From: a virus
Virus record (IMG/VR): IMGVR_UViG_3300043449_000557
Coordinates: 1 to 40,292 of that record
Length of the DNA stretch: 40,292 bases
Direction: 5' to 3' (one strand)
Of the stretch, positions 897-40,292 are shown one piece after another. A model generated the notes under the pieces. The model saw only the letters and a program-made list of their open reading frames with translations. It made no database searches and was not told where the DNA came from. The stretch's first letter is position 1; every line of letters begins with the position of its first letter. A program made the translations under genes and the position numbers.

Positions 897-2785
897 TTTG
901 GCTTGATTTCGAAACAAGATCCGAATGCGATCTGCCGGTGAATGGCGTGTATAATTATGCACGTCATTCATCAACTGAAGTCATTTGCTTGTCTGGCGCA
1001 GAAGATGATGGCCCGGTTGTCACATGGCGACCGGGCGAACCTTTTCCGTGGAAGATAGACGGGCAACAGATTCGCGCCCATAATGCCGCTTTCGAGCGGC
1101 TTATCTTTTGGCATGTCCTGAAGATGGAGATACCTCTTGAGCAATTCTATTGCACGGCTGCGCAGGCGCGGGCGAATTGTGCGCCAGGTAGCCTTGAGGA
1201 TGTTGGAAGGTTCGCCGGCACGGATATGCGTAAGGATCATCGCGGGGCTGCTTTGGTGCGGGCTTGTTGCATTCCTCCTTTCAGAGATGATCTCATACCC
1301 GAATTGATTGAATACTGCGAGCAAGACGTGCGTACTATGCGCGCCGCCAGCAAAGCCATGCGGGAACTGACACCAGAAGAGTTGGAGGATTACCATGCTA
1401 ACGAGCGCATCAATGATCGTGGCGTTCTTATCGATCAGCGTCTTTGCCGCGCGGCGGTCAAATATGCGGCTGACGAATTACAGGAGATCGAAGCTACGGT
1501 TAAAGAAGTTACCGGCGGCGAAATTATCTCCGTCCGTTCTCCCAAAATGCGGCTATGGGTTCAAGAAAGACTCGGCCCAGAAGCGCGTAAACTTATGGAA
1601 CGTGACGACAAGTTCTCAATCGACAAAACCGTTCGGGCCAACCTACTGGCCATAGACGACCCTGAAGAGGTGCCTCCCGATGTCAGAGAAGTCATACAAT
1701 GCGCGGACGATCTTTGGGCGTCTTCTGTTGCTAAATTTAATCGCCTTGATAACCTTGCTTGTGCTGATGGTCGTGTTCGAGGTGCTTTTGTCTTTGCCGG
1801 CGGATCAGCCACAGGACGCGCTTCCTCGTATGGTGCGCAGGTCCACAACTTCACACGTAAGTGCGCCGATGACCCGGAAGCCGTGCGACATGCAATGGTT
1901 CGGGGTCATGCAATCGTGCCTAATTACGGACGAAGAGTCACGGACGTTCTGCGAGGTATGCTTCGGCCAGCCCTGATTCCTGCGCCTGGCAAGCAGTTCG
2001 TCGTCGCAGACTGGTCGGCCATCGAAGGGCGCGTAAACCCGTGGCTGTCCGGTAGAGGTGAGGATAAGTTACAGGCGTTCCGTGACAAGTTAGATCCTTA
2101 TATTGTAAACGCGGTGTCGACATTTCATGTCCCCTATGAACAGGTCGACAAGTCGCAACGCCAAGTCGGCAAGGTACAGGAGCTTGCGTGCGGATTCGGT
2201 GGCGGCGTTGGCGCGTTCGCGGCGATGGGCCGCGTTTATGGCCTGTCGTTACCTGAAGCTGAAGCGAAGCGCATGGTTGACGCCTGGCGTCAAGCTAATC
2301 CGTGGTCTGTGCCGTTTTGGTCTGATCTTGAGGTTGCTTACATTCGCGCGCTGCGCAATCCGGGTAAAATATTTGAGGCTGGCCGTGTAAAATACTTGGC
2401 CGACAAGCAGCACCTTTGGTATGCTCTGCCTTCTGGCCGGGTGCTTTGTTACCCGAACGCCCGGTTCGAAGAAGATGGTTCGATCACCTATTCAAAGGCG
2501 TCTTGGAAGCCTGCGGCGGATGCTAAAGAGTGGCCTCGGGGTCGGCTCTGGAGAGGGCTGGCTTGCGAGAACGTCACACAAGCGACCGCCCATGATCTTC
2601 TACGTGAGGCTCTGCGCCGTCTGCCTGACGTTGTGTTGCATGTTCACGATGAAATTGTTCTGGAGTCTGATCGGCCCGACGAGGCGAAGGCGCTCCTAGA
2701 AGAAGTTATGACAACGTCGCCCGTATGGGCGGAAGGACTACCGTTAGAAGTAGAAGCCACCATTATGGGAAGATACGGAAAATGA
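893..2785 (+). CDS. DNA polymerase, family A, with 3'-5' exonuclease
   Basis: This is a 630-aa Pol I-type replicative polymerase. The N-terminal exonuclease domain has DFE at residues 5-7 (Exo I), HNAAFE (Exo II) and YCEQD (Exo III), so proofreading looks intact. The polymerase domain has motif A DWSAIEGR (Asp373), motif B with Arg423 and Lys427, and motif C HDE at 585-587. In motif B, the position matching Klenow Phe762 is Leu431 and that matching Tyr766 is Phe435. Family members copy the phage genome with the primase-helicase. The gene overlaps its neighbours by ATGA-type junctions on both sides, so it belongs to a tightly packed operon. Confidence 0.96.
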   Translation: MIWLDFETRSECDLPVNGVYNYARHSSTEVICLSGAEDDGPVVTWRPGEPFPWKIDGQQIRAHNAAFERLIFWHVLKMEIPLEQFYCTAAQARANCAPGSLEDVGRFAGTDMRKDHRGAALVRACCIPPFRDDLIPELIEYCEQDVRTMRAASKAMRELTPEELEDYHANERINDRGVLIDQRLCRAAVKYAADELQEIEATVKEVTGGEIISVRSPKMRLWVQERLGPEARKLMERDDKFSIDKTVRANLLAIDDPEEVPPDVREVIQCADDLWASSVAKFNRLDNLACADGRVRGAFVFAGGSATGRASSYGAQVHNFTRKCADDPEAVRHAMVRGHAIVPNYGRRVTDVLRGMLRPALIPAPGKQFVVADWSAIEGRVNPWLSGRGEDKLQAFRDKLDPYIVNAVSTFHVPYEQVDKSQRQVGKVQELACGFGGGVGAFAAMGRVYGLSLPEAEAKRMVDAWRQANPWSVPFWSDLEVAYIRALRNPGKIFEAGRVKYLADKQHLWYALPSGRVLCYPNARFEEDGSITYSKASWKPAADAKEWPRGRLWRGLACENVTQATAHDLLREALRRLPDVVLHVHDEIVLESDRPDEAKALLEEVMTTSPVWAEGLPLEVEATIMGRYGK

Positions 2786-5058
2786 TTAACTATTTTATCG
2801 GCCTTGCGCCGGCTGGCGAAACAGCCCTCATTGTAAAACAGATCGACACTGGCAAGCTGCACAAAGACGGCTCGCCTAAATATACTTGGCCGGCGTATCT
2901 GCCGAAGCATAAGCGCAAGGAAGGCGAGTCTTGGTTCCTAAATACGGGATCATTCATCATGGATCGGATGCGCGACAAGCCGTCCGCATCCGTGGCGAAC
3001 TGCACGCATGTGCTGTTTATGATGCTAGACGACATTGGCACGAAGTCAGCCAAGCCGCCGTTGGAACCGACTGCCATCGTCGAGACAAGCCCTGGCAACT
3101 ATCAATATTGGTATGCCTACAGCGACCAGCCGACCGTCGAAGAACATTGTGCAGCTCTTACTGCTATTGCTGAAGCTGGCTACACCGATCCTGGTGCTAC
3201 TAACGCCGTGCGTAACTGTCGCTTGCCAGGCTCGGTTAACGTCAAGCCGGGCCGCGACGCGTTTGTCTGCCGACAAGTAGAGTTTCACCCAGAGCGTGAA
3301 TTTACGCTGGCGCAGATATGCGAAGCGCTTGGCGTTACGCCGGCTGAGACTGGCACTGCAAGACACGTCTCTTTTAGAGTAAAAGACACTGGCAATGACA
3401 CAGTGCTGGCGTGGCTGAGCGAGAACGGTCTTGTTACGTCCGGCGTAAACGCAGAGGGCTGGTGCGGCGTTGTCTGCCCGAATCATGAAGGACACACAGA
3501 TGGACAGATTGAAGCGCGATATAAGCCGCAGGATCGTTCATTCTGTTGCTATCACGCTCATTGCGAGCATCTTGATAGCAAGTTCTTTTGCGATTGGGTA
3601 TCGGAACAAGGTGGGCCGCGCGCTATCCCCGGCCTGCGAGACGATCTCATTGCCGACTACACCAGCAAGATTAGTTCGCTGACGCCGACCGAAGCGTTTC
3701 CTGACGAGGCGGCGGTTCGAATTGCTGAAGTGGAGCGCAAGCAAGCGGGGCGCGAAGAACGCGCCACATGGCATAAACGCTTCGCTTATGTCGTCGATGA
3801 TGACGGTTATTTTGACCATAAGACAGGTCAAGAGATCAGCCGCCGCGCGTTTAACGCGATCTTCCGGCATGTCGAATGTAAGTCTACGGGCGAAAAACCG
3901 CGTCGGCTTGAGGCGTCGGTTTGGTATGATGAAAACCGCGAGGCTCAAAAGGGTTATGTCTTGAAAGGCATGACCTACGCTGCCGGTGACGACTGGAAGG
4001 TTGCGCGCGATGGGCTCGTTTATGGCAACGTCTGGCGCGACGCCAGGCCGAAGGTTGAGAGCGCCGGTAATCCGCAGCTTTGGATTGACCATTGCCGGCG
4101 TCTCGTGCCGGACGAACGCGAACTTGAGCATATCTGGAACGTGATGGCCGTGAAGGCGCAGCAGCCGCGCACGAAGATCAATCACGCGATCCTGCACGGC
4201 GGCAACGGCGGTATCGGCAAGGACACCATGTGGTATCCGCTGCTCTGGGCCGTTGGCGGCGAGCACATGAGAAACGTCGCGGTGATCGACAGCAATAAGA
4301 TCAACAGCGATTTTGGCTACCATTATCAGACTGAGATCATGGTGTTAAACGAGCTGAAAGAGCCGGAAGCGAAAGAGCGCCGGGCGCTGGCGAACAAGCT
4401 CAAGCCGATCATCGCCGCGCCGCCGGAGATGCTGACGGTCAACCGCAAAGGTTTGCATCCGTTCGAAATGCCTAACCGCATTTTCATGCTGGCGTTCACG
4501 AACGAGTCTATGCCGATCACGCTCGACAGCGATGACCGGCGCTGGTTCTGCGTTTGGTCTGACGCGCCGAAGATGACGCCGGAAGAAACGACGCGGATCT
4601 GGGACTGGTATAAGGCCGGTGGATTTGAAGCCGTCGCGGGCTGGTTGCGTTCGCGTGACGTGTCGCAGTTTAATCCGAAAGCGATTCCGTTTGCGACCGA
4701 ATACAAGCAGCGTTTGATCTACACCGGCATGAGCAACGCGGAGAGCTACATTCATCACCTTATCGAAAAGCAAGAATCGCCGTTCAAGACCGACATCATC
4801 TCTGGCCCCTGGCACATCATCCTTAAAGAGTTGTCACAGGCCGCGCCGGACAATCTGCGGACAAGGATCGTTCAGCCGGCGCTGTTTCATGCTCTGAAAG
4901 AAGCCGGATGGGTTGACAAAGGGCTTTGTAGCTCGCCTGAATATAAATCGAAGCGGCACATATTCGTGCGGCCTGACCTAGCGGCGTTGCCTAAAGCCAA
5001 GCTACGCAACATGGTCGAACCGGACTGGAAAGACAATGTCGTCCCACTTAAAGGTTGA
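2782..5058 (+). CDS. Primase-helicase (RepB-like primase, SF3-type helicase)
   Basis: ATG 2782 overlaps the polymerase stop (ATGA), giving 758 aa and starting MINYFIGLAPAGETA. The N-terminal third resembles RepB-type primases (MLDDIGTKS, VETSPGNYQYW, NAVRNCRLPGS). A Cys/His-rich stretch follows (CPNHEGH, CCYHAHCEH), probably zinc-binding. The C-terminal half is a DUF5906/VirE-like SF3 ATPase with Walker A GGNGGIGKDT (Lys480), an NELKEPEAKERR stretch and a DDRRW sensor region. It would unwind the fork and prime lagging-strand synthesis for the polymerase encoded just upstream. Its 3' end overlaps the next small gene by 23 bases. Confidence 0.92.
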   Translation: MINYFIGLAPAGETALIVKQIDTGKLHKDGSPKYTWPAYLPKHKRKEGESWFLNTGSFIMDRMRDKPSASVANCTHVLFMMLDDIGTKSAKPPLEPTAIVETSPGNYQYWYAYSDQPTVEEHCAALTAIAEAGYTDPGATNAVRNCRLPGSVNVKPGRDAFVCRQVEFHPEREFTLAQICEALGVTPAETGTARHVSFRVKDTGNDTVLAWLSENGLVTSGVNAEGWCGVVCPNHEGHTDGQIEARYKPQDRSFCCYHAHCEHLDSKFFCDWVSEQGGPRAIPGLRDDLIADYTSKISSLTPTEAFPDEAAVRIAEVERKQAGREERATWHKRFAYVVDDDGYFDHKTGQEISRRAFNAIFRHVECKSTGEKPRRLEASVWYDENREAQKGYVLKGMTYAAGDDWKVARDGLVYGNVWRDARPKVESAGNPQLWIDHCRRLVPDERELEHIWNVMAVKAQQPRTKINHAILHGGNGGIGKDTMWYPLLWAVGGEHMRNVAVIDSNKINSDFGYHYQTEIMVLNELKEPEAKERRALANKLKPIIAAPPEMLTVNRKGLHPFEMPNRIFMLAFTNESMPITLDSDDRRWFCVWSDAPKMTPEETTRIWDWYKAGGFEAVAGWLRSRDVSQFNPKAIPFATEYKQRLIYTGMSNAESYIHHLIEKQESPFKTDIISGPWHIILKELSQAAPDNLRTRIVQPALFHALKEAGWVDKGLCSSPEYKSKRHIFVRPDLAALPKAKLRNMVEPDWKDNVVPLKG

Positions 5059-6238: not shown

Positions 6239-6303
6239 TTTAGCCCCAACACTATTTCGATTATTACCGCCAATAAGATTGCCATTGCTTCACCGATTTT
6301 CAT
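6235..6303 (-). CDS. Tiny membrane peptide (22 aa)
   Basis: The reading frame ATG 6303 to TGA 6235 encodes MKIGEAMAILLAVIIEIVLG plus LK. It is almost entirely one hydrophobic helix with a charged cap, long enough to cross the inner membrane once. Its start overlaps the end of the DnaA-like gene by 14 bases, and its stop overlaps the next ATG. It sits in a chain of overlapping genes with no spare room, which supports it being real. Confidence 0.55.
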   Translation of the reverse strand: MKIGEAMAILLAVIIEIVLGLK

Positions 6304-6535
6304 AGCGTTTGATCCCGTGCATGATGGTCGTGTGGTCGCGGCCCCCTAGCACTTGTCCGATTAGCTGGAGCGGCGCGTTCAGCTCGTGCCTGGCGCGCCA
6401 CATAATCTCGAACCGTGGCCAGATGACCCCTTTGCGGCGGTTGTGGCCGGTGAGAGCCGCGGTTGATATGTTATGATTCCGGGCTGTTTCCTCGATCAGC
6501 TCCCGAATCTCTTCGATCATCTCTTGCTTTTGCAT
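6290..6535 (-). CDS. Stand-alone DnaA domain IV-like DNA-binding protein (81 aa)
   Basis: Residues about 31-78 match the C-terminal DNA-binding domain (domain IV) of the bacterial initiator DnaA. A basic region RRKGVIWPRFEIMWRAR is followed by APLQLIGQVLGGRDHTTIMH, which includes the DnaA signature GRDHTT at 65-70. The first 30 residues are a charged helix. The AAA+ ATPase domain (domain III) and domains I-II are absent. Domain IV binds the DnaA box TTATCCACA. The operon leaders and the region at 8691-8699 carry such boxes, so this protein may bind them. It could act as an initiator helper, a competitor of host DnaA or a regulator. Confidence 0.85.
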   Translation of the reverse strand: MQKQEMIEEIRELIEETARNHNISTAALTGHNRRKGVIWPRFEIMWRARHELNAPLQLIGQVLGGRDHTTIMHGIKRYENR

Positions 6536-6719
6536 GTTTTAGACTCTTGAACATGAAATTGAGCGCGTGCGCCGCCGTGACGACAGAACGCTCGTCAGCG
6601 TAGGGCGCATGAATTTTCATTATGAGCGAGCCGTCGCGCCGATGCAGCGACAGCCCCTCCCCAACCTTCCAACGGGTCAAGACCCCTCCGGGTTGCGTGT
6701 CGAGATCAAGCCGGAGCAT
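6471..6719 (-). CDS. Hypothetical protein (82 aa)
   Basis: The product begins MLRLDLDTQPGGVLTRWKVG and continues with short beta-type segments (GLSLHRRDGSLIMKIH), a helix (AAHALNFMFKSLK) and a low-complexity, Asp/Arg-rich end. The last 65 bases overlap the DnaA-like gene in another frame, so the C-terminal tail is probably a read-through of noncoding frame. The start overlaps the previous gene by 14 bases. No family is recognised. Confidence 0.5.
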   Translation of the reverse strand: MLRLDLDTQPGGVLTRWKVGEGLSLHRRDGSLIMKIHAPYADERSVVTAAHALNFMFKSLKHAKARDDRRDSGADRGNSPES

Positions 6720-6858
6720 GACCGCGCTTCTCTAATTCGTTCTGGATGATCTTGGCGCGGTAATCGTCCTGCTCTGTCTCTAACAGGATGTTAAGCGCCT
6801 CATCTGACAGCCAATGCAAGAGCTGGCTAAATTCAAAATAATCTTTCATGCGTGACAT
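6706..6858 (-). CDS. Small acidic helical protein (50 aa)
   Basis: ATG 6858 to TGA 6706 encodes MSRMKDYFEFSQLLHWLSDE, followed by a second acidic helix and KRGHAPA. The start overlaps the stop of the upstream membrane peptide (TAATG). A GGGAGG ribosome binding site lies about 7 bases upstream, preceded by a degenerate copy of the TAACATATCCAC leader motif. Function unknown. Confidence 0.6.
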   Translation of the reverse strand: MSRMKDYFEFSQLLHWLSDEALNILLETEQDDYRAKIIQNELEKRGHAPA

Positions 6859-6953
6859 TATAGGCCTCCCAGTAGATATGTTACGAATAAGGCGAGCGCG
6901 GGGACGGCAAGCGCGGCCCCCAGCGCAAAGGCGATTAGGTCAGTTTTGTTCAT
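6858..6953 (-). CDS. Small membrane peptide (31 aa)
   Basis: ATG 6953 to TAA 6858 encodes MNKTDLIAFALGAALAVPAL and then ALFVTYLLGGL. Apart from the first five residues it is one long hydrophobic stretch, so it is probably a single-pass membrane peptide. It overlaps the end of the upstream gene by 14 bases and the next ATG by one. Function unknown; it is one of two such peptides in this operon. Confidence 0.6.
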   Translation of the reverse strand: MNKTDLIAFALGAALAVPALALFVTYLLGGL

Positions 6954-7248: not shown

Positions 7249-7397
7249 TGTTCGGTCCAGTATTCTTCGGCAGCGTTGTCGTAAACGTCGCGCAGCGTTA
7301 GCAGCGCGTCGCTTAGATAGATGGATTTATTTGGGAGGCGGGATAACAGCTCGATTAGCTCTTCTATCGCTTTGGCTTCCAGCTCTAATTCAATCAT
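7233..7397 (-). CDS. Small acidic helical protein (54 aa)
   Basis: ATG 7397 to TGA 7233 encodes MIELELEAKAIEELIELLSR and a second helix ending WTEQWSNP. It is acidic and probably forms a two-helix coiled structure. The start overlaps the TGA of the 153-aa gene upstream (ATGA). Function unknown. Confidence 0.65.
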   Translation of the reverse strand: MIELELEAKAIEELIELLSRLPNKSIYLSDALLTLRDVYDNAAEEYWTEQWSNP

Positions 7398-7855
7398 AGC
7401 GTAACCCTCAAAAACTGGCGTGCAATCATCTCGGCATTGTCCAGCGATGCGATGGACGCCGCTAGAGACAGCGACAAGCCAAAGCGCGCTAGGAACGTCG
7501 CCAACTCATCTTGCGGCACTTTGGCGATGATGGCCGCCGCTTGTTCTAGCTTTGCTTTGGGAACGCGTTTGCGCGGTATAGCCGGCGCTTGTTCTGTCTT
7601 GGCTGGTTTTTCGGTCTTTGGCCAGCGATACACGCCGTCTGTTTTGGTTGCTTCGGCCAAGATGACCGAACGTAGCTTGTCATTGTAAATGCCGAACCGT
7701 GCCTCATAGGCTTTTTGTTCTTTTGATTTGTAGTTGCGAGCGCTCCCGCCGCGCACACGAATGCTTGCGCCTTCTTGCGTGAACACGTTACCGTGACCGA
7801 TATTCAACATTGGGCCTTCCCATTTGCTTTCGCACCATGCTTTTAAGTTTGTCAT
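7394..7855 (-). CDS. Hypothetical protein with basic linker (153 aa)
   Basis: Residues 1-65 form a compact, probably folded part (MTNLKAWCESKWEGPMLNIG). A Lys/Pro-rich linker follows (KTEKPAKTEQAPAIPRKR), then a helical C-terminal domain (AIIAKVPQDELATFLARFGL). The gene follows a terminator directly and starts 11 bases after a TAACATATCCACA-type leader whose CACAAGGA also supplies the ribosome binding site. No domain is recognised. Confidence 0.7.
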   Translation of the reverse strand: MTNLKAWCESKWEGPMLNIGHGNVFTQEGASIRVRGGSARNYKSKEQKAYEARFGIYNDKLRSVILAEATKTDGVYRWPKTEKPAKTEQAPAIPRKRVPKAKLEQAAAIIAKVPQDELATFLARFGLSLSLAASIASLDNAEMIARQFLRVTL

Positions 7856-7866
7856 GTCGCTATTCC

Positions 7867-7879
7867 TTGTGGATATGTT
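7867..7879 (-). promoter_or_regulatory. DnaA-box-like leader motif, copy at 7.87 kb
   Basis: On the minus strand this reads CAACATATCCACA, one base from the shared TAACATATCCACA. Its ATATCCACA part is one base from the DnaA box TTATCCACA. It lies 11 bases before the ATG at 7855 and directly after a terminator. Confidence 0.55.
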
Positions 7880-7880
7880 G

Positions 7881-7919: not shown

Positions 7920-8183
7920 TTATGCGTCTTCTAATGTTTGAATTAAATGGCCGGCGATTTCATACCAGTTGACATCGGCCATGAACGCCAGCGCATAGTC
8001 TGCCGCTAGCCCCTCGCCGACGTCACCAGTCACCAGTTCTTCGGCAAAGTCTTTTAGCTGTTTCGACATCTCATATTGGTCATCTGTCTTGAACCATTCG
8101 CGCGGTTCGATCCCGTCGAACATTTCCAGATTGACGCGCCACGTCGCGTAGTTTGTCCAGCCGTTATAAGTTGTATCAGTCAT
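7920..8183 (-). CDS. DUF7249-like phage protein (87 aa)
   Basis: The N-terminus contains NGWTNYATWRVNLEMFDG, the hallmark of a small protein family common in phages and annotated as DUF7249. The rest is acidic and helical and ends HLIQTLEDA. The biochemical role of the family is unknown. AGAGGAG lies before the start, with the shared TAACATATCCACA leader 18 bases upstream of the ATG. A terminator follows the gene. Confidence 0.8.
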   Translation of the reverse strand: MTDTTYNGWTNYATWRVNLEMFDGIEPREWFKTDDQYEMSKQLKDFAEELVTGDVGEGLAADYALAFMADVNWYEIAGHLIQTLEDA

Positions 8184-8201: not shown

Positions 8202-8214
8202 TGTGGATATGTTA
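8202..8214 (-). promoter_or_regulatory. DnaA-box-like leader motif, copy at 8.20 kb
   Basis: On the minus strand this is TAACATATCCACA. Its TAA is also the stop codon of the 37-aa gene upstream. The ATG at 8183 follows after 18 bases. Confidence 0.6.
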
Positions 8215-8325
8215 CCACTTAAACCACGCCCATGCGTCATGGATTATGTCAGCCTCCGTGCCGTTCGGGCGGCCAAAGGCAGCGTAAAGCGCGGCGCTAT
8301 ATTCTTCGTCGGTCATGTCAGTCAT
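8212..8325 (-). CDS. Small hypothetical protein (37 aa)
   Basis: ATG 8325 to TAA 8212 encodes MTDMTDEEYSAALYAAFGRP and then an acidic, Trp-rich end (DAWAWFKW). An AAAGGGG ribosome binding site and the shared leader motif lie upstream. The frame fills the space between two repeats of the leader and ends inside one of them. No family recognised. Confidence 0.6.
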   Translation of the reverse strand: MTDMTDEEYSAALYAAFGRPNGTEADIIHDAWAWFKW

Positions 8326-8344: not shown

Positions 8345-8357
8345 TGTGGATATGTTA
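8345..8357 (-). promoter_or_regulatory. DnaA-box-like leader motif, copy at 8.35 kb
   Basis: On the minus strand this is TAACATATCCACA; the TAA is the stop codon of the 96-aa gene upstream. The next ATG (8325) follows after 19 bases. Confidence 0.6.
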
Positions 8358-8645
8358 TATGTTGATTGTTACTTTGGCAAGAAAGCCGCTTTCGTCGACG
8401 GTGACGTTCGCGGGTATTTCATGCAGCTTGATATACTCTTTCACGCCCGCTTCCTTTAGCGCGCGCTTGATCATGCCGCCGAACATATCGCTGTTAGCGT
8501 ATGACCTATACTTGGCGTGGTTGCGGAATGCCGCCATGTCGCAGTGACGGCGCTCTATTGCCGGCACTTTGATCCAACGCCACGCGGGCGTTTCGTCGGC
8601 GTTGTATATTGTCTCTACTTTGGCTTTGAAGCTGATGGTTGGCAT
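8355..8645 (-). CDS. Hypothetical protein (96 aa)
   Basis: This is the first gene of the leftward operon. It encodes MPTISFKAKVETIYNADETP, a basic middle part (ERRHCDMAAFRNHAKYRSY) and a beta-type C-terminus ending KVTINI. The start has AAGGGG upstream and the shared leader motif 18 bases before the ATG. It lies immediately beside the candidate origin region. No domain is recognised. Confidence 0.7.
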   Translation of the reverse strand: MPTISFKAKVETIYNADETPAWRWIKVPAIERRHCDMAAFRNHAKYRSYANSDMFGGMIKRALKEAGVKEYIKLHEIPANVTVDESGFLAKVTINI

Positions 8646-8663: not shown

Positions 8664-8676
8664 TGTGGATATGTTA
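8664..8676 (-). promoter_or_regulatory. DnaA-box-like leader motif, copy at 8.67 kb
   Basis: On the minus strand this is TAACATATCCACA, 18 bases before the ATG at 8645. It is the first copy in the transcript of the leftward operon. Confidence 0.6.
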
Positions 8677-8690
8677 TCTTTGCGCTGATT

Positions 8691-8699
8691 TGTGGATAA
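8691..8699 (-). promoter_or_regulatory. Perfect DnaA box
   Basis: The bases TGTGGATAA are the exact reverse complement of the consensus DnaA box TTATCCACA. The site lies at the edge of the iteron region, 15 bases from the leader motif at 8664-8676. The same phage encodes a DnaA domain IV protein. Confidence 0.65.
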
Positions 8700-8716
8700 C
8701 GTCAAGAAGTTTTTTG

Positions 8717-8728
8717 CGGATCGTCGAA
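8717..8728 (-). repeat. Inverted partial iteron
   Basis: CGGATCGTCGAA is the exact reverse complement of TTCGACGATCCG at 8889-8900, which overlaps the first iteron. Further inverted fragments are GAATCGTCGGACGAC at 8739-8753 and ATCGTCATGA at 8791-8800. Confidence 0.6.
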
Positions 8729-8805
8729 AATAGTTGTCGAATCGTCGGACGACATGGCGCTGAAGGCGAGGCGCTGCTTGAAAACGTCATATCGTCATGA
8801 GAGTT

Positions 8806-8834
8806 GTTATAAGGAGTTTTAGAATAAATGTAAA
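8806..8834 (-). promoter_or_regulatory. Sigma70-type promoter for the leftward operon
   Basis: On the minus strand TTTACA (8834-8829) and TATAAC (8811-8806) are separated by 17 bases, each five of six matches to consensus. Transcription would begin near 8799 and run through the inverted repeats and the DnaA box before reaching the gene at 8645. Proteins bound there could therefore control the operon. Confidence 0.55.
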
Positions 8835-8891
8835 CATAATAGTATAGGGACTGCAAAAAGATTTGAGCGACCAAAATCGCCATGGCGATTC

Positions 8892-8906
8892 GACGATCCG
8901 ACGTTT
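8892..8906 (+). repeat. Iteron 1
   Basis: GACGATCCGACGTTT, a 15-base direct repeat found three times without mismatch in this region. Confidence 0.8.
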
Positions 8907-8958
8907 TTTGCCCCGCGCCGTCCAGGCGCAAACATTCTGCATGAACCTGCGTCGTCAT

Positions 8959-8973
8959 GACGATCCGACGTTT
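8959..8973 (+). repeat. Iteron 2
   Basis: Second exact copy of the 15-mer; the preceding TCAT is close to the CAT before iteron 3. It starts 67 bases after iteron 1. Confidence 0.8.
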
Positions 8974-9005
8974 TGCTGGCGCTTGTCGCGACCTTCTCAT
9001 CGCAT

Positions 9006-9020
9006 GACGATCCGACGTTT
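9006..9020 (+). repeat. Iteron 3
   Basis: Third exact copy of the 15-mer, 47 bases after iteron 2. Confidence 0.8.
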
Positions 9021-38751: not shown

Positions 38752-39300
38752 ATGGCATTCGATAAGAAAGCATGGCGCGACGCCAACAGAGACAAGTGCA
38801 AACTTTACTCGGTGCGTTACAGGCTGAAGCAGAAGGGTTTGTTATCGCCGGAAACGACCGAACAAATGATGGCGGAACGCGAAGCCAAGAAAATCGCGTC
38901 CGCCGAACGGGCCAGACAGCGCAAGCGTGAGTGGGCGGCGGCTAATAAGCACCGCAAAAACGAGCGTTATCGGGAGCGTTACCATAGCGATCCTGAGTTT
39001 AGACGGCGCGAGATAGACAAGCGTATCAAAGCGTTTGGGCCAAAGCTGACGCCAGAAGAGCGCGAAGCGATCCGGGCCAAAAAGCTGGCTGAAAAGATGG
39101 CGCTAAAGCAAGCCCAGCTTGAGAGCAGAGTGCATGAAAGAGAGCAAGAAAAGTTAAAAAAGAAAAAACTAGAAAACGCCAGACGACATGCGCTGGCGAT
39201 GGAAAAGGCGGAAAAGATACCGCCGAAGAAGCCGAAAGTAACCATGAAAGTAAGAAAGCCTGGACGGCTTGTAGCATTATCGGGATGGATGGGATGGTAG
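38752..39300 (+). CDS. Highly charged basic helical protein (182 aa)
   Basis: The N-terminus KKAWRDANRDKCKLYSVRYR and the related RKREWAAANKHRKNERYRER, YHSDPEFRRR repeat a phage motif often found beside HNH nucleases. Residues 85-165 are a Lys/Glu/Arg-rich helix. It probably binds nucleic acid. No HNH core is present. Its ATG directly follows the T run of a terminator and no ribosome binding site is visible, so its expression is unexplained. Confidence 0.65.
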   Translation: MAFDKKAWRDANRDKCKLYSVRYRLKQKGLLSPETTEQMMAEREAKKIASAERARQRKREWAAANKHRKNERYRERYHSDPEFRRREIDKRIKAFGPKLTPEEREAIRAKKLAEKMALKQAQLESRVHEREQEKLKKKKLENARRHALAMEKAEKIPPKKPKVTMKVRKPGRLVALSGWMGW

Positions 39301-39500
39301 GAAAACCGCTAAACAATACACGACGCATCAGAGATATATCTGCATTGACGCCATACGAGGAAAAGATCCTTAGCCTACGTCGGCAGGGGCTACCGTGGAA
39401 GAAAATAGCCGAACAGATCGGCAATATCAGTGAGCGTTCTGCTAGCGTTAAGTATATCACGATTAAAGAAAAGTTAGCTGCTAGGGGAGAGACGCCGTGA
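39285..39500 (+). CDS. Helix-turn-helix protein (71 aa)
   Basis: Residues about 20-60 form a helix-turn-helix of the sigma region 4 or GcrA type: LTPYEEKILSLRRQGLPWKK, then IAEQIGNISERSASVKY. It is a candidate small transcription regulator. The start may be ATG 39285 or 39294; both lie in the 3' end of the previous gene. The stop overlaps the next start (GTGA). Confidence 0.7.
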   Translation: MDGMVGKPLNNTRRIRDISALTPYEEKILSLRRQGLPWKKIAEQIGNISERSASVKYITIKEKLAARGETP

Positions 39501-39763
39501 CCGATAGATTGCTCGACGAGATCGAAGCGGCATTGGCAGAAAAAGACACCCGCATCGCGGAACTTGACGCGCTTCTTAGCCAAACCAATGAGGGCTACGC
39601 AGAGTGCATCGCAACGCGGGAGGACTATCGCGCCCGCATCGCGGAACTTGAAGCGGCTGGAAACCTTGTCGTCGAATGGTGGCTGTCAGAAGGCATGAAA
39701 CTTATGGACGGCGCACCTTACGCAATGTTCAGGCTGCGCTCCGCTTTGGGAGAAAAGGAATGA
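39497..39763 (+). CDS. Small coiled-coil protein, long-allele version (88 aa)
   Basis: GTG 39497 overlaps the previous stop and has AGGGGAG upstream. Residues 1-53 are a charged coiled coil (LLDEIEAALAEKDTRIAELD) containing two copies of RIAELDA/RIAELEA. The C-terminal part (LVVEWWLSEGMKLMDGAPYA) differs from the version at the left end, which has KPFADLAEKY instead. It ends FRLRSALGEKE, a weak form of the RAARAAYLGEKDD tail. The stop overlaps the next ATG (ATGA). Confidence 0.75.
   Translation: MTDRLLDEIEAALAEKDTRIAELDALLSQTNEGYAECIATREDYRARIAELEAAGNLVVEWWLSEGMKLMDGAPYAMFRLRSALGEKE
39546..39657. repeat. Right-end copy of the variable locus, first identical block
   Basis: These bases equal 1-112. 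The long allele continues for 526 bases before rejoining at 40184. Confidence 0.95.
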
Positions 39764-40236
39764 CTGACGAGCCTACTATACGGATACGCGACGGGTCTAT
39801 GGTCACGCGGGAAGAATACGACATGATGGAAGCGCACGCTAAACGCGTCAGGGATGCGGCGGCCAACCGTCAAGTAATGTCTGACAGTTCGCTGGACTAC
39901 ACAGGACTTGTGAATTGGCTGCGAGATAATGCCGTTGGTGTTGTCTCATTTCGCCCAAAGTTTATCGAAGCCGCAAACGCCATTGAAGCATTGATGGCCC
40001 GCATTGATGACATCGCAGAGAAATACAACAACGCTCTATTGTCGCCTGTTACAGAGAAGATGCTGAAAAACGCGGTTGAAGAGATTGTTCAGTTAAAGGC
40101 GGCGATAAAGCCATTTGCTTTGGCTGCGGATGACTATTTTGACGACGATGACGACGAACCTGCTTATTTGAAGCATTTTCGCATTGGCGACCTCCGCGCC
40201 GCCCGCGCCGCTTATCTGGGAGAGAAAGATGACTGA
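39760..40236 (+). CDS. Acidic hypothetical protein of the long allele (158 aa)
   Basis: ATG 39760 overlaps the previous stop. The N-terminus MTDEPTIRIRDGSMVTREEY is followed by helical segments (LVNWLRDNAVGVVSFRPKFI). Near residues 115-158 comes the module shared with the left-end allele: KAAIKPFALAADDY, an Asp-rich stretch and GDLRAARAAYLGEKDD. It is absent from the short allele except for this module. Function unknown. Confidence 0.7.
   Translation: MTDEPTIRIRDGSMVTREEYDMMEAHAKRVRDAAANRQVMSDSSLDYTGLVNWLRDNAVGVVSFRPKFIEAANAIEALMARIDDIAEKYNNALLSPVTEKMLKNAVEEIVQLKAAIKPFALAADDYFDDDDDEPAYLKHFRIGDLRAARAAYLGEKDD
40194..40213. repeat. 20-bp GC-rich gene-end repeat, copy 3
   Basis: Exact copy of the 20-mer at 209-228 and 554-573; this copy is part of the allelic duplicate. 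Confidence 0.85.
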
Positions 40237-40292
40237 CGCACCCATCGTCGATGTCATTATACGCCACAGGGCGCTTGCCATTACAGAAGATG
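40229..40292 (+). CDS. 5' part of the gene at 244-450, second copy
   Basis: ATG 40229 starts the same protein as ATG 244 (MTDAPIVDVIIRHRALAITE) and runs off the right edge. It is not a second gene but the same one met again by going round the circle. Confidence 0.85.
   Translation, partial: MTDAPIVDVIIRHRALAITED

Follow-up and report, generated by a model that had tools for sequence, protein, structure and literature searches.

Cluster A mycobacteriophages (L5, TipsytheTRex) encode a repressor with asymmetric 13-mer operators and stoperators that lie in promoters and short intergenic gaps and are oriented with transcription (PMC9283540). Separately, single-domain phage proteins corresponding to DnaA domain IV have already been annotated by the dozen, typically as “DnaA C-terminal” (for example, A0A6J5KNY4 in BFVD and proteins of Rhizobium and Aurantimonas phages), and a functional study of any of these was not found among the papers searched on phage-encoded DnaA or domain IV proteins. 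The protein described here has the same single-domain architecture as these annotated proteins, with about 20-40% identity, and matching DnaA-box operators were not found in the distant loci tested. Thus, a stand-alone DnaA domain IV in a phage is not new, and the new part is its DNA partner sites; as far as we can judge from the searches made, the combination of such a protein with transcription-oriented box sites is apparently undescribed.

The window analyzed here (40,292 nt) is the complete record of one IMG/VR virus. The contig ends overlap exactly (1-112 is identical to 39546-39657, and 199-307 to 40184-40292), so that the record probably represents a nearly complete genome that is circularly permuted and contains an assembly joint. 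The gene content includes DNA polymerase A, a RepB-primase/DUF5906 protein, an SNF2 helicase, portal, capsid, terminase and a GH108 endolysin. Among annotated phages, the closest is Podoviridae ctNMl277 (MW202483; terminase 84%, primase 53%), which also has a DnaA domain IV gene in the equivalent position across from the primase; that protein is, however, only about 30% identical to the one in the window, and the ctNMl277 locus carries repeats of GTTTATGTAAAC and lacks the TAACATATCCACA repeats described below. A leftward operon of small genes, which converges on the primase gene, extends from about 8.7 to 5.2 kb, and the DnaA domain IV gene is located late in this operon:

2725..5058, plus strand: RepB-primase/DUF5906 primase-helicase, convergent neighbor and synteny anchor
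6290..6535, minus strand: DnaA-domain-IV-only protein, 81 aa (Pfam, AlphaFold2 model, structure match)
6706-6858, minus strand: operon gene preceded by the variant site TAACATATCTACT
7394..7855, minus strand: operon gene, 153 aa, kept beside the motif in relatives
7920..8183, minus strand: operon gene, 87 aa, DUF7249 (Pfam)
8212-8325, minus strand: operon ORF between the 8355-8645 and 7920-8183 genes
8355..8645, minus strand: first operon gene, 96 aa

The product of ORF 6290-6535, which begins with ATG and contains the GRDHTT signature, comprises an entire DnaA domain IV without any further domain, in agreement with the original prediction of an isolated DNA-binding domain lacking the ATPase. 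The profile search proposed with that prediction matched Pfam PF08299 (Bac_DnaA_C) at 58.5 bits against a curated cut-off of 31.5 bits, with residues 12-77 aligned to positions 3-68 of the 69-position profile, and this was the single PF08299 match in the whole record. The Pfam scan gave no further domain for this protein, and the AAA+ ATPase domain III of the full-length initiator DnaA was not found in it; a PHROG search returned no match. The structure prediction concurs: the AlphaFold2 model built with 35 relatives as input (pLDDT 94.9, pTM 0.84) has the DnaA domain IV fold, its top matches among solved structures are DnaA without exception, and the closest is E. coli DnaA domain IV in complex with a DnaA box (1J1V; Z 13.2, rmsd 1.1 Å over 74 residues). 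The modeled helices span residues 3-20, 25-29, 35-52 and 56-62, followed by the recognition helix at 68-79, which closes the model. Close relatives at 35 IMG/VR loci are 75-98% identical, the gene is under purifying selection (dN/dS 0.03-0.17 against 11 relatives), and its placement opposite and 3' of the primase gene is kept among relatives, all of which identifies it as a gene rather than a chance ORF.

Using the E. coli DnaA base-contact positions from PMC5043019 and PMC5742627, the alignment to 1J1V places the minor-groove arginine R399 at R33 of the phage protein, and R432, D433, H434, T435, T436 and H439 at R66, D67, H68, T69, T70 and H73, respectively; P423 is replaced by Q57 and L438 by M72. 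The phage protein thus shares with DnaA domain IV (PF08299; 1J1V, 3PVP, 8BTG) the fold, the GRDHTT recognition helix and the minor-groove arginine, and its predicted target contains TATCCACA, but it lacks the last helix of the E. coli domain, and its target differs in the strict TAAC at the 5' flank and in the free first position. Compared with full DnaA, it is missing domains I-III and, with them, ATP binding, oligomerization and strand opening. Because the AAA+ domain is absent, a replication-type DnaA function is ruled out, and, because the base-contact residues are kept, it is plausible that the protein binds DnaA-type boxes without melting DNA. These same features, conserved contact residues combined with the loss of the ATPase and oligomerization domains, would also suit a dominant-negative domain IV that covers the DnaA boxes of the host oriC and blocks initiation. 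We regard such an action on the host as very improbable given that the contact conservation is already explained by the boxes of the phage itself, and that no host sequence could be linked to the phage (in 84,980 genomes, the matches reached no more than about 35-55% identity in their best segment, and no close relative turned up).

In many relatives, a second DnaA domain IV gene is present 5' of the polymerase and primase genes (L195:4392-5087, L220:3765-4247, L209:3491-4183 and others), in some cases followed by a LuxR-like HTH gene; at the corresponding place, the window has a LuxR/GerE-like HTH ORF alone (39285-39500).

The window is rich in DnaA boxes of the two forms suggested in the original prediction, TTATCCACA and ATATCCACA. 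With up to one mismatch allowed, there were 17 matches, compared to 6.1 +/- 2.5 expected, a count that none of 100 shuffles reached. Five of the 17 fall between 7.8 and 8.7 kb, each of them on the minus strand. The repeated site TAACATATCCACA contains a DnaA box that matches at 8 of 9 positions. The sites and the associated elements, from the operon promoter downstream, are:

8700..8705, minus strand: TTGACG, resembling a -35 hexamer, in the promoter of the leftward operon; conserved as TTG[AC][CA][AG] beside the spacer box across 27 distinct promoter contexts
8691..8699, minus strand: spacer box TTATCCACA, a DnaA box without mismatch that separates the -35 from the -10 and precedes the expected transcription start
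8664..8676, minus strand: candidate operator TAACATATCCACA at -10/+1, exact repeat; gene 8355-8645 starts 18 nt further on
8345..8357, minus strand: candidate operator TAACATATCCACA, 19 nt before the start of ORF 8212-8325; gene 8355-8645 uses the TAA of this site as its stop codon
8202..8214, minus strand: candidate operator TAACATATCCACA before gene 7920-8183; ORF 8212-8325 uses the TAA of this site as its stop codon
7890..7915, minus strand: intrinsic terminator with an 11 bp stem and a T run; about 10 nt separate its end from the 7868-7880 site
7868..7880, minus strand: candidate operator CAACATATCCACA before gene 7394-7855, directly after the intrinsic terminator
6871..6883, minus strand: variant site TAACATATCTACT before gene 6706-6858; the variant is kept in many relatives

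The five site copies (four near-identical and one variant) are all on the operon strand, point the same way as transcription and precede a start codon by 13-19 nt; no clear -35 was seen at the internal copies. The 12-mer AACATATCCACA occurs in four exact copies in the window, each on the strand of the gene, whereas no 12-mer reached four copies in any of 100 first-order Markov copies of the window; the remaining four-copy 12-mers derive from the overlapping contig ends. This 12-mer contains ATATCCACA, one mismatch away from a DnaA box, and a random 12-mer would be this box-like with P = 0.0025. An unsupervised motif search before start codons ranked the site motif first, both in the window and in the related locus L143. 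Two candidates were discarded: an apparent fourfold repeat of CCCGCATCGCGGAACTTGA consists of two copies doubled by the overlapping contig ends, and a match at 6462-6473, inside the DnaA domain IV gene, corresponds to the codons for the conserved N-I-(S/P)-T residues and shows codon-wise drift.

The clustering of DnaA boxes at 8.2-8.7 kb, beside AT-rich DNA and a divergent intergenic region with repeats (8717-9020), is also what might be seen at a phage replication origin marked by the 81-aa protein or by the host DnaA. This interpretation appears highly unlikely because the sites are spread over 1.8 kb in a single orientation, each beside a start codon, the TAA of two of them doubles as a stop codon, and the promoter hexamers are at a fixed spacing. 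The repeats in the divergent region itself are direct and inverted copies of ACGATCCGACGTTT, possibly an origin or a second operator set.

The first site copy forms part of a specific promoter arrangement. In 27 distinct promoter contexts (90 nt) of this clade, which include 8664-8705 of the window, a spacer box is combined with a -10/+1 box, such that the first site copy overlaps the -10/+1 region of a sigma70-like promoter and the second box fills the spacer between -35 and -10. The layout common to many relatives is cTTGACR-[NTATCCACA]-N13/14-TAAC[A/G]TATCCACA; in the clearest relatives, TATAAA or a similar hexamer directly precedes TAAC (in L206, TTGACA, 16 bp, TATAAA). The -10 of the window itself is weak, and a generic promoter scan of the window did not report the leftward operon promoter. 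The pairing of a spacer box with a box across -10/+1 is a standard arrangement for repressors, and the position of the spacer box upstream of the expected transcription start argues for binding at the DNA level. Only the TTGACR layout is specific: a relaxed two-box scan also yields coding matches and unrelated phages with TTATCCACA arrays, and, among the matches listed for an exact GTAACATATCCACA scan, there are many chance contigs. Dense arrays of perfect TTATCCACA were observed in the unrelated viral contigs L363, L369, L388 and L410, where a DnaA domain IV gene was not found on the stretch examined.

Relatives of the 81-aa protein are encoded in 71 viral loci, of which 35 are close. In the close loci, the motif (up to two mismatches) had 142 occurrences on the gene strand against 14 on the opposite strand, a ratio that should not be over-read because the counts include redundant contigs and the discounted coding match inside the gene. 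The matrix derived from 61 distinct contexts is RTAACNTATCCACA, in which TAAC, TATC and ACA are nearly invariant and box position 1 is free. In the clade with 69-72% identical primases, the motif drifts to AACCTATCCACA, AACTTATCAACA or AACTTATCCACA, with its place before the ribosome-binding site kept.

The composition of the motif bears on the identity of the binder. Host DnaA could recognize these sites, sense the replication state, and repress or activate the operon, with the phage protein competing at the same boxes: the site core is NTATCCACA, several perfect copies of TTATCCACA are present (window 8691-8699, L222, L017), and, to our knowledge, DnaA is found in essentially every bacterial host. 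However, position 1 of the site is A in 75% and T in only 8%, and position 1 of the spacer box is mostly C (15 of 27), which is not the pattern expected from selection for host DnaA binding, whereas the host-like arrays of unrelated phages without DnaA domain IV use T at this position (TTATCCACA). Together with the strict TAAC flank, which is foreign to the host box, this makes host DnaA an unlikely binder. The DnaA box does not include the invariant TAAC, for which the domain IV contacts do not account. Given that its opposite strand, GTTA, is the 5' half of an inverted box, it might be read by a second monomer.

The motif co-occurs with the gene. Among primase-anchored loci with more than 4 kb of downstream sequence, the motif is present on the gene strand in 34 of the 34 with a strong DnaA domain IV match (98 bits or more), with none on the other strand; the two DnaA domain IV carriers without the motif have just 1.8 and 2.3 kb of sequence. 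In the primase-anchored loci that lack the protein, the motif is absent from the gene strand. Conversely, the promoter pattern is followed by a DnaA domain IV gene on the same strand in all 13 distinct contexts for which 3.3 kb or more of downstream sequence was available. Searches in L224 and L229, where the recognition helix reads RRTHPAV instead of GRDHTT, did not find matching sites before gene starts; in L230, with the divergent recognition helix NHTAV, the motif is still present at two genes, a reason for caution. In the distant DnaA domain IV loci L037-L072, neither box enrichment nor box-like spaced repeats were found, so we do not claim the coupling of gene and motif for phage DnaA domain IV proteins in general. 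Near one distant DnaA domain IV gene (L064, 7093-10205), there are five copies of a TAAGTTGATACA repeat that is not DnaA-box-like. Phage DSL-LC05 (L074, 33990-34730) has three CCCGTAACCGTAAAGGAACC copies before start codons of the equivalent operon, the same layout with a different motif, and a DnaA domain IV gene was not seen in this phage.

All carriers belong to one clade and many of the loci are nearly identical, so shared ancestry is a confounder, and the co-occurrence could reflect it. The motif might then be a promoter or RNA leader element that is unrelated to the protein and travels with it by common descent, all the more as, in some relatives such as L222 and L227, TAACNT could itself pass for a -10 (TAnnnT). 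We consider this improbable: the DnaA-box resemblance would have to be fortuitous (P = 0.0025), and the spacer copies cannot be an RNA element because they lie upstream of the expected transcription start.

Most likely, the 81-aa protein works as a gene switch and not as a replication factor, because repeated, one-way DnaA-box-like sites are located over the promoter and the gene starts of its own operon. We favor, with somewhat better than even confidence, a small autoregulatory repressor that uses DnaA-box-derived operators in its own leftward operon; that this protein is the binder, that binding is repressive, and the timing are all inferred. The protein would bind RTAACNTATCCACA, a phage-specific extended DnaA box, within the operon that encodes it. 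Occupying the spacer box and the -10/+1 box, it would exclude RNA polymerase from the operon promoter, and the further copies before internal start codons would serve as extra operators or elongation road-blocks, such that the operon would be shut off by negative feedback as the protein accumulates. The suggestion, made together with the original prediction, that the protein regulates phage genes is thus supported by the single orientation of the boxes, their position on promoters and gene starts of its own operon, and their co-occurrence with the gene. The two other suggestions, that the protein blocks host DnaA or recruits it to phage DNA, gained no positive support from the analysis. More tentatively, how strongly the operon is expressed might depend on how host DnaA and the phage protein balance each other at boxes used by both, which would tie phage timing to the replication state of the host.

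In its working, the 81-aa protein would resemble the stoperator system without being a member of that family. Asymmetric, transcription-oriented sites in a promoter and intergenic gaps are shared with cluster A, but the cluster A repressor is unrelated and has two DNA-binding domains (HTH and Stoperator domain) in contrast to the single DnaA domain IV. Cluster A phages carry more than 20 sites genome-wide, whereas here there are five in one operon, and the cluster A system serves lysogeny, whereas no integrase was found among the ORFs scanned in the window.

Many phage genes labeled “DnaA C-terminal” are easily mistaken for replication genes. The predicted cognate sites, the promoter geometry and the natural variants described here suggest a transcriptional role and make the function directly testable. 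If this interpretation is correct, the DNA-binding domain of a replication initiator would have been reused as a phage gene switch.
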